Positions 37,218 to 40,936 of a DNA stretch of 64,000 bases are shown here, piece by piece. The notes beneath the pieces were generated by a model, which made no database searches, had not been told where the DNA came from, and saw only the letters and a program-made list of their open reading frames with translations. How positions within the stretch are numbered: position 1 is the stretch's first letter; each line of letters opens with the position of its first letter. Location: positions 186,001 to 250,000 of the forward strand of contig NZ_BDCG01000017.1 in assembly GCF_001613385.1 (NCBI RefSeq). The letters are read 5' to 3'. A program made the position numbers and the translations under genes. Source of the DNA: Nocardia flavorosea NBRC 108225. GTDB lineage: Bacteria; Actinomycetota; Actinomycetes; Mycobacteriales; Mycobacteriaceae.

Positions 37218-38315
37218 TCAGGCCGATAGGCCCGTCCACTGCGTGGCAGTGTACGGGCCGGAGCCGGCGATACCGGTCCACCGGCTGATCACCGCGGTCA
37301 GGTTGTCGGGCGAGGACGACCCCGGGTGCAGATAGCCACCGTAGAGGTTCGGCAGTTGCGGGCGGCCGGCGTGCGCCGGCGAGGCCGTTGCGTCGTGCAC
37401 CACCTGCGTTTTCGCGGCGGACCACAGCGCGTCCGGGCGCGGCGCGGTACGGGTGCGAATGCTCAGGTCGGAGCAGTCGAAGTACGACATCACATAGACC
37501 GGACCGATACGTTCGACGGAGAATTCGCCGAGGTTGTTGCCGGGACCGAAGATCGGGGTCGGGGCTTGCCGGGCGGCGGGATACCAGCCCCATTCTCCGT
37601 CGATATGGGCCCAGTTCTGCTGGGCGGCGAAATCGCCGTGGAAGAAGGCGGCGGGGTCGTATCGGAAGAGGTGGATACCCCCGCGATCGTGGCGGAAATG
37701 GTGGCTGCCGTTCCACGGCTTGGCGAAGATATACAGGTAGCCGTCGGGATCGATACCGGCGAATGTCCACATACCGTAAGGATTCCCGTTGATACCGAGC
37801 GCGGCACCGGGCCAGTGGTGCGGGAAGTCCTGCCACGTGATGCCGTAATCGTCGGAGTAGGCGATACCCGAGAACGCGGAGCCGTCGGTATCGGAGTCCG
37901 GCGGGACCCAGGTGTGCACGGAGGTGTACTGAACGAAGGTGCGACCACCGAATTCGATGGCGTCGTTGGGGATACGCGAGACCTCCGTGACACCGAATCC
38001 GTTGTCCGCGTGGTGCCGGTAGTCGAACAGTTGTCCGGCCGGCCGGTCTCCCGGAAGCGGGCGCGTGAATTCGATGGCGCGGGCACCGGACGGATCGAAA
38101 TCGTCCTCGACCAGAATCAGTGGGGAACCGAGATAATCACCCGATTGTCCCGGCCCGCGCCAGCAGTCCCCCCACAGATAGCCCCAAGTGCCGTCGTGGA
38201 CGCGCCGATACGGGATACACAGATCACCGGACCCGAGTCCGCATCTGCCGGCCGAGTCGGCGGGTTCGTCACACAGCGGCGTACCGCTTCGAGCAAAGTC
38301 GTCGATTCCGGACAT
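37218..38315 (-). CDS. DUF4185 domain protein without visible signal peptide
   Basis: About 365 residues of a beta-propeller-like fold with family marks such as GSPLILVEDDFDP, GIAYSDDYGITWQDFPHHWPGAALG, GIDPDGYLYIFAKPW and GPVYVMSYFDCSDL. DUF4185 proteins resemble glycosidase-like, often secreted enzymes; none of the visible starts gives a signal sequence. ATG 38315 is used; a TTG at 38384 would add 23 residues but has a weak ribosome site. It converges with the GMC gene (9 nt between stops). Confidence 0.75.
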   Translation of the reverse strand: MSGIDDFARSGTPLCDEPADSAGRCGLGSGDLCIPYRRVHDGTWGYLWGDCWRGPGQSGDYLGSPLILVEDDFDPSGARAIEFTRPLPGDRPAGQLFDYRHHADNGFGVTEVSRIPNDAIEFGGRTFVQYTSVHTWVPPDSDTDGSAFSGIAYSDDYGITWQDFPHHWPGAALGINGNPYGMWTFAGIDPDGYLYIFAKPWNGSHHFRHDRGGIHLFRYDPAAFFHGDFAAQQNWAHIDGEWGWYPAARQAPTPIFGPGNNLGEFSVERIGPVYVMSYFDCSDLSIRTRTAPRPDALWSAAKTQVVHDATASPAHAGRPQLPNLYGGYLHPGSSSPDNLTAVISRWTGIAGSGPYTATQWTGLSA

Positions 38316-38411
38316 CTGCCCCAGCGTAGCCGGTGCCGCTCTGGACCGAATATCCGGCAGCCCCAACAGTATTGACTCCGACAATTTTCCAGGCGACTTC
38401 GGCAGATATGA

Positions 38412-38448
38412 GAACAGCCCGCCGGATTTCCGATCCGGCGGGCTGTTC
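38412..38448 (-). terminator. Strong 16-bp hairpin terminator of the 32-residue peptide gene
   Basis: GAACAGCCCGCCGGAT (38412-38427) pairs perfectly with its complement at 38433-38448 around a 5-nt loop. It starts 33 nt after the stop of the small peptide gene and lies just upstream of the DUF4185 gene. It has no U-tract, as in I-shaped actinobacterial terminators. Confidence 0.85.
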
Positions 38449-38480
38449 CTGCAGGTCTACCTGCGTACACGAGCCACTTG

Positions 38481-38579
38481 TCACTCGGCGGAGAAGCTCG
38501 TCAGATCGCCGAATCCACTGAAAATGCTCCCGAACGCACCCAGCAGAGTCCCGAGGTTTCCCAGGTCGACAGAACCCAT
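38481..38579 (-). CDS. 32-residue amphipathic peptide, possible channel-forming or surface-active peptide
   Basis: A short gene with ATG at 38579 and TGA at 38483. The peptide starts MGSVDLGNLGTLLGAFGS and ends in IFSGFGDLTSFSAE. Hydrophobic residues at 6, 9, 12/13, 16, 19/20, 23 and 26 form one face of a helix, and Gly at 7, 10, 14 and 17 another. It has no signal peptide and is slightly acidic. GGAGAAGGA stands before the ATG; a promoter (38645-38672) lies upstream and a 16-bp terminator downstream, so the unit is complete. It resembles in size and style the PorA/PorH mini-porins of corynebacteria, but there is no clear sequence identity; that function is a guess. Confidence 0.65.
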   Translation of the reverse strand: MGSVDLGNLGTLLGAFGSIFSGFGDLTSFSAE

Positions 38580-38644
38580 TTCCTTCTCCAATCAATCATC
38601 CAACCGATGACGCCCTGCGCGCCGTCCACATTGGTAGTGCCGTA

Positions 38645-38672
38645 ATCCTAACGTACTCGTTCCGTTTTGCAA
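38645..38672 (-). promoter_or_regulatory. Predicted promoter of the 32-residue peptide gene
   Basis: On the minus strand a -35 TTGCAA (38667-38672) and a -10 TAGGAT (38645-38650) are 16 bp apart, close to the housekeeping sigma consensus. Transcription would start near 38638, giving a leader of about 59 nt and a total transcript of about 230 nt. Confidence 0.6.
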
Positions 38673-38789
38673 ACGTGATACGAAACCGAGGTTAATAGAA
38701 ATCAAATCAGAGCGCGATCCAAATTCGATCGATGGAATTACACGAGTGTATTACATCGAATTATCTTGCGCGCCCTGATCACTCGGATA

Positions 38790-38818
38790 ATTACGGAAAT
38801 ACCGGACATTTCCGTAAT
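38790..38818. repeat. Perfect 11-bp inverted repeat
   Basis: ATTACGGAAAT (38790-38800) and ATTTCCGTAAT (38808-38818) are separated by 7 nt. It lies about 120 bp upstream of the peptide's -35 box. It may be an operator for a dimeric regulator or an AU-rich hairpin ending the methyltransferase transcript, whose stop is about 190 nt away. Confidence 0.65.
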
Positions 38819-39010
38819 ACTGCGGCCACCCCGAGCCGCGAGTGCGCCGGCACCTGCCACCGGGCGAGCGCACGGGTCACCGCCCTCCACCACAGAAGGT
38901 GACGAACCGGTCGTTCAGCAGATATCCGTTGCCGCCCGGCACCGGCCGGGAATCCGTAGCGCCCGCCCACCCGGCCCGGCTCTCACACCACGGGCCGGGT
39001 ACGAGCAGGA

Positions 39011-40186
<1,176 letters not shown>

Positions 40187-40936
40187 ATGGACATGCTTCA
40201 CCTGGAACACTTCGCGCTGGGCTGGCTCACGCCGGCGCTGGCGTATTTTCTCTCGGCCACCGGCTGCGCCATCGGACTACAGTGCACCAAACAGGCGCGC
40301 CGGGGCCGGCGCCGGCTCGGCTGGCTGATCATGGCCTCGATCGCCATCGGGGGAACCGGTATCTGGGTCATGCATTTCGTTGCGATGCTCGGCTTTTCGA
40401 TCGACGGCGCCCAGATCCGCTTCGACGTCCCGCTCACCGTGCTCAGCGCGGCCCTCGCGATCGGGGTCGTCGGCGTCGGCCTCTATCTGGTGAGCACACC
40501 CGGTTCCGGGCTCGCCATCCTGCTCACCGGCGGAGTGATCACCGGCCTGGGAATCGGTGCCATGCACTACACGGGTATGGCGGCGATGCAAACCGACGCC
40601 CAGATCGATTACGACCCGGTTCGTATCGCCCTCTCCCTGGTGATCGCCATGGGCGCGGCCACCGTCACCCTGTGGTTCAGCCTGCGCTCCTGGGGTGCGG
40701 TCTCCACGGTGGGTGCGGCACTGGTGATGGCGGCAGGTGTGGCGACCATGCACTACACCGGTATGTCCGCGATGCACGCCCATGCCGCCGCCCACCCCGC
40801 GGAACCGCAGGGCGCCGAAGCGCTGGAGGTACTCGGCCCGCTGATCGGCGCGATCAGTGTCGTCACCGTCGGGCTCCTGATCGGCATCAGTATGACGCTG
40901 ACGGACCCACACCGGACGTCGGCGCCGGAACGCTGA
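40187..40936 (+). CDS. MHYT-domain membrane sensor protein
   Basis: A 249-residue integral membrane protein with seven predicted helices. Three repeats of the MHYT motif are visible: MHFVAM (62-67), MHYTGM (126-131) and MHYTGM (188-193). These are predicted to bind copper near the outer membrane face and to sense O2, CO or NO. Most MHYT proteins carry a GGDEF, EAL or kinase output domain; this one stops after the membrane domain, so any output must be through a partner. The ATG at 40187 is followed by a second one two codons on. Confidence 0.88.
   Translation: MDMLHLEHFALGWLTPALAYFLSATGCAIGLQCTKQARRGRRRLGWLIMASIAIGGTGIWVMHFVAMLGFSIDGAQIRFDVPLTVLSAALAIGVVGVGLYLVSTPGSGLAILLTGGVITGLGIGAMHYTGMAAMQTDAQIDYDPVRIALSLVIAMGAATVTLWFSLRSWGAVSTVGAALVMAAGVATMHYTGMSAMHAHAAAHPAEPQGAEALEVLGPLIGAISVVTVGLLIGISMTLTDPHRTSAPER

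Follow-up and report, generated by a model that had tools for sequence, protein, structure and literature searches.

Does the 32-codon frame on the minus strand near position 38,500 of the window (the whole 64-kb stretch of DNA analysed here) encode a genuine protein, and if so, to which class does so small a product belong? The first-pass annotation had described a self-contained transcription unit at this locus, with its own promoter, ribosome site and hairpin, and had compared the product with the PorA/PorH mini-porins of corynebacteria.

A conserved 32-codon gene and its flanking elements

The frame (38481-38579, minus strand; peptide MGSVDLGNLGTLLGAFGSIFSGFGDLTSFSAE) runs from an ATG at 38579 through 32 codons to a TGA ending at 38481 and is preceded by the ribosome-binding site GGAGAAGGA (38581-38589, minus strand), with GGAG upstream of the start; ribosome site, start, codon count and stop agree with the first description. 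The locus also lies in an AT-richer island, as had been noted, the GC content being 0.42-0.56 across most of 38500-38850 versus approximately 0.60-0.73 in the surroundings. The full-length peptide was found in 27 of 152 Nocardia genomes, which takes the gene beyond chance; a search with a broad profile (A3) returned no further convincing peptides in the remaining 125 Nocardia genomes, and no relatives were found on plasmids or phages. The peptide is identical in N. carnea, N. flavorosea and N. speluncae, and among the six genomes that share it all eight variable bases fall at third-codon positions. Across 25 distinct genes the pooled pN/pS was 0.25 and the pairwise differences at codon positions 1, 2 and 3 numbered 1887, 801 and 3718, respectively, while the start codon, the GGAG and the stop are kept among the orthologues. 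Two checks on the proposal had been named in advance, namely that related genomes keep the frame and that substitutions follow the codon positions, and both came out in its favor. We conclude that 38481-38579 is a real protein-coding gene with selection acting on the protein.

The stop codon is followed by a perfect 16-bp GC-rich hairpin (38412-38448, minus strand; stems 38448-38433 and 38427-38412) with no U-run, which we presume to be a transcription terminator. It is the hairpin of the first-pass annotation, and its predicted stability (dG -34.9) corresponds to a z of -6.8 relative to shuffled sequences. Perfect stems of 11-18 bp, with compensating sequence changes, occur 3' of the stop codon in 21 of the 27 orthologues; stems in random 120-nt pieces of the window are typically 4-7 bp.

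The assignment of a promoter proved only partly right. The hexamers TTGCAA (38672-38667) and TAGGAT (38650-38645) are present on the minus strand with the 16-bp spacer originally given; however, they match the sigma-70 consensus at 8 of 12 positions together, which is under the threshold of a consensus scan, TTGCAA is found in none of the orthologues beyond the six that share the identical peptide, and the TANNNT-like TAGGAT is replaced by TTCGGAT, TTCAGAT or TTTGAAT in relatives. What is conserved instead is a cis module, ACGTTAGGATTACGGCACTACCAA (38631-38654, minus strand), which includes the TAGGAT and for which the aligned upstream regions give the consensus ACGTTnnnATwACn5TACCAA. In nearly all orthologues ACGTTnnnATnAC is present, with TACCAA or something close to it after it; the upstream sequence of N. 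albiluteola is without this module. A related ACGTT is frequent 22 bp further upstream among the orthologues; in the window it lies within ACGTTTGCAA (38667-38676, minus strand), which overlaps the proposed -35 hexamer (38667-38672). We considered whether the module marks a regulon and rejected this idea: in the four genomes tested an exact match occurs once per genome, at the peptide gene only, with none elsewhere at up to one mismatch and a single site at two mismatches.

The peptide gene has one set of neighbors in the carnea group and others in the cyriacigeorgica and testacea/fusca/rhamnosiphila groups, and the neighbors change again in N. donostiensis, N. vermiculata, N. mexicana and N. 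albiluteola. Since its own module and strong hairpin stay with it in seven or more unrelated neighborhoods, the gene is a self-contained, portable unit, and this part of the original description stands. In the window, the gene is followed by one for a DUF4185 protein (37218-38384, minus strand; E 1e-53), which not all members of the carnea group have at this position. Two genes upstream in the carnea group is a membrane protein with repeated MHYTGM motifs (40187-40936, plus strand), an MHYT-type sensor by inspection.

Properties of the peptide and its relatives among mycolic-acid bacteria

The two faces attributed to the peptide hold throughout the family. Positions 6, 9, 13, 16, 20 and 23 are always Leu, Phe or Ile in all 14 distinct 32-residue family peptides, and positions 10, 14, 17, 21 and 24 are Gly, Ala or Ser in the same 14, with position 7 small or, as the sole alternative, Leu. 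The window peptide has a net charge of -3 with no Lys, Arg or His, and by inspection a signal sequence is absent, again in agreement with the initial description. Among the Nocardia peptides S3 and S30 are invariant and S28 nearly so. AlphaFold2 predicted a single helix for residues 6-31 (mean pLDDT 78), in which a hydrophobic ridge beside a ridge of small residues spaced by 3 and 4 would suit a lipid-facing, self-packing helix. At 100 degrees the peptide has no more than a moderate hydrophobic moment (p 0.14 versus shuffles), which alone is unconvincing. A Pfam search of the peptide gave nothing above cut-off, including for the MspA profile PF09203, and an Rfam search of the 64-kb window was empty.

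Relatives were sought with a profile (A2) built from the Nocardia peptides and searched over 401 genomes of the mycolic-acid family (f1). The matches comprised DnaJ-like and other long frames, plus short frames, each of which has a ribosome site of its own and, in most cases, a hairpin after it. The closest relative outside Nocardia was the peptide MPDFSTLGDLFSAIGDIFGGIGTLSSLSA (E 1e-11) of genome G226, in genus g16. Convergent with its gene is an esterase-family gene (L075:418-1437) whose product looks like a mycoloyltransferase. Mycoloyltransferases are the class of enzymes that acylate PorA and PorH.

Genus g6 has peptides of 31-34 residues ending in FFS, and next to some of their genes a second small gene lies in tandem. 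At three g6 loci (L089, L090 and L099) there are tandem pairs of 31-34 residue peptides, both Phe/Ser-ended and arranged like porH-porA, and the sole g6 locus for which the neighbors were read (L088) has aminopeptidase-like and amylase-like genes, not groEL. In genus g4, small-gene clusters directly adjoin groEL at all eight loci examined, which argues that A2 finds true family members and not DnaJ-like convergence. Five g4 loci (L078, L084, L093, L094 and L107) encode several different signal-less peptides of approximately 45-55 residues, with their own ribosome sites, adjoining groEL, and the g4 clusters are apparently an expanded porA/porH-like locus. The peptides of genus g3 belong to the PorACj family by model NF038022 (E 4e-12 to 5e-16) and are encoded between groEL and ppk2, a match and position by which g3 is Corynebacterium. 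A 40-residue peptide from this corynebacterial groEL-ppk2 interval (L114:1483-1605) scores 46.6 bits for PorACj and, weakly, 22.6 bits for porH_2, and so links PorACj and PorH with the Nocardia peptides. The broad profile A3, which includes members from several genera and therefore served as a background control and not as independent discovery, matched none of the short frames in 299 genomes sampled from the order outside f1.

Comparison with corynebacterial and MspA-type porins

Neither PorACj (40 aa) nor PorACur (37 aa) has a signal sequence; both are amphipathic helices, and their oligomers make water-filled channels (PMC3792995, PMC5944148). The Nocardia peptide is like the members of family NF038022 (C. 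jeikeium PorACj and C. urealyticum PorACur) in its size class, absence of a signal sequence, amphipathic helix and Gly/Phe-rich core, but differs from PorACj in having 32 residues and no basic ones, in its subthreshold score, in being encoded away from the groEL-ppk2 locus and in its host, which is not Corynebacterium. The window peptide scored 13.1 bits (E 0.073) against NF038022, below the curated cut-off of 28 bits, and is therefore not a formal member of the PorACj family. A direct search of Nocardia with this model returned background only, with no genome above cut-off, and is not used as evidence; nor did the window peptide match the porH models directly.

We aligned the Nocardia alignment with hhalign to seven Corynebacterium PorACj-locus peptides that had been found with NF038022 and are absent from the Nocardia profile, obtaining a probability of 92% and a score of 32.4. 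The controls reached at most 17.9 in 300 column shuffles and 29.0 in 300 shuffles that kept the hydrophobic/small/polar pattern, so that none of 600 attained 32.4. BLASTP aligned the window peptide with two members of the PorACj-locus set, MDIDAITELLGNLSTFFGGFSDVFSGLGDIFTGGAALSSE (20 residues, 60% identical) and MIDQITEIFGQLGTFLGGFGNIFKGLKDVIETIVKWTAAK (16 residues, 69% identical). The shared core is a Gly/Phe-rich helix of approximately 21 residues, to which DnaJ models also match weakly, and convergence of so short a helix is the doubt that remains for this reason. Based on these similarities we conclude distant homology of the Nocardia peptide to PorACj. To the extent of a family resemblance, the mini-porin comparison of the first-pass annotation is thus largely supported, by the profile and BLASTP matches and, for the g4 intermediates, by groEL synteny.

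The resemblance extends to PorA and PorH of C. glutamicum and relatives (porH_1, porH_2), which are small signal-less alpha-helical mycomembrane proteins of less than 60 residues; the Nocardia peptide, also shorter than 60 residues, signal-less and predicted to be helical, is of the same kind as PorACj, PorA and PorH. Some corynebacterial proteins are matched by both the porH_2 and the PorACj model. PorA (45 aa) and PorH (57 aa) act as a pair from one operon, and their surface assembly needs mycoloylation of at least one partner, while the type VII system is dispensable (PMC12632848). In contrast to this tandem pair, the Nocardia gene is single, without a tandem partner, although tandem genes do occur in the g4 and g6 relatives. 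The published position of porA/porH is between groEL and ppk2 (PMC5944148). The Nocardia peptide gene is not between groEL2 and ppk2, its neighbors being unrelated, and a separate porA-like gene at groEL was discounted, as no such peptide is encoded beside or downstream of groEL in the three Nocardia genomes checked.

Mycomembrane channels of another type are present in Nocardia, the MspA-type porins (PF09203; NfpA/NfpB of Nocardia farcinica), whose approximately 20-kDa beta-barrel subunits have signal peptides (PMC9233653) and have no sequence relation to the Nocardia peptide. We found them in all 152 Nocardia genomes and accordingly rejected the idea that the peptide replaces them.

Proposed function, rival readings and significance

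Our preferred explanation, which we consider probable, is that the gene encodes a miniature mycomembrane protein, a distant homolog of the corynebacterial channel subunits PorACj, PorA and PorH, with an oligomerizing helix that forms a small pore. The peptide would be made without a signal sequence and exported via the same route as PorA/PorH. It may be O-mycoloylated at its Ser-rich C-terminus (S30, S28) or at S3, a modification that takes place in flexible Ser/Gly/Ala-rich stretches with no strict motif (PMC11066868); the C-terminal end of the peptide resembles such stretches. Helix 6-31 would sit with its Leu/Phe ridge towards the lipid, while the Gly/Ser ridge at 7-10-14-17-21-24 (spacing 3-4-3-4-3) could pack into a homo-oligomer and so form the small pore. 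The acidic, Lys/Arg-free composition suggests that such a pore would prefer cations. With MspA porins in every one of the 152 Nocardia genomes, the peptide need not serve as a general porin, and it is more likely to be an accessory channel or a structural peptide of the mycomembrane than the main porin.

As an alternative, a peptide of this family with a structural or anchoring role, perhaps mycoloylated and comparable with ProtX, would sit in the mycomembrane without forming a pore. The family arguments (the A2 relatives and the hhalign result) apply to it equally, an accessory role is plausible for a peptide found in only 27 genomes when MspA porins are in all 152, and the LSSFSAE end of relatives resembles the stretches that receive O-mycoloylation (PMC11066868); but the best-matching characterized relatives, PorACj and PorACur, form channels, and we regard this reading as rather unlikely. 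We think it improbable that the product is a secreted surface-active or antimicrobial peptide of the leaderless-bacteriocin or modulin type. Such an assignment would fit a short, amphipathic, signal-less product with a patchy distribution and a portable, self-contained gene, yet a charge of -3 to -4 with no basic residue is unlike most membrane-attacking peptides, the neighborhoods have no conserved exporter or immunity gene, the gene was absent from the plasmids and phages searched, and the similarity to PorACj would be left aside.

That same similarity counts against a small regulatory peptide of the inner membrane, or a type I toxin, that targets the producer's own cytoplasmic membrane, a reading which we judge very improbable even though a single helix with a hydrophobic face, as predicted by AlphaFold2, and the small size would be compatible with it. 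There is no Lys or Arg for orientation in the inner membrane, the Gly/Ser ridge is constant, no known antisense partner was seen by Rfam in the window, and the gene is single-copy with changing neighbors. Conservation of the upstream module and hairpin could also be expected of a noncoding RNA in which the open frame is incidental. We give this almost no credence and reject it on the codon pattern, as amino acids are kept while third positions vary, with the low pN/pS and the retained start, GGAG and stop.

For Nocardia, Rhodococcus, Tsukamurella and Dietzia, the channels of the mycomembrane have been described as MspA-type, and small helical porins as corynebacterial (PMC9233653, PMC5944148). 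There is about an even chance, in our estimation, that small alpha-helical channel peptides are an old family across mycolic-acid bacteria (Nocardia, Corynebacterium and several further genera), working beside the MspA porins and overlooked at approximately 27-55 residues, with the Nocardia branch a portable, singly transcribed mini-porin. The gene also draws attention to a class that escapes gene finders. At 32 residues its product would rank with the smallest channel subunits in nature, the smallest being, by one description, PorACur (37 aa). Both the permeability of such drug-tolerant envelopes and the still unsolved route by which mini-porins without a signal sequence are exported would become testable in new organisms.
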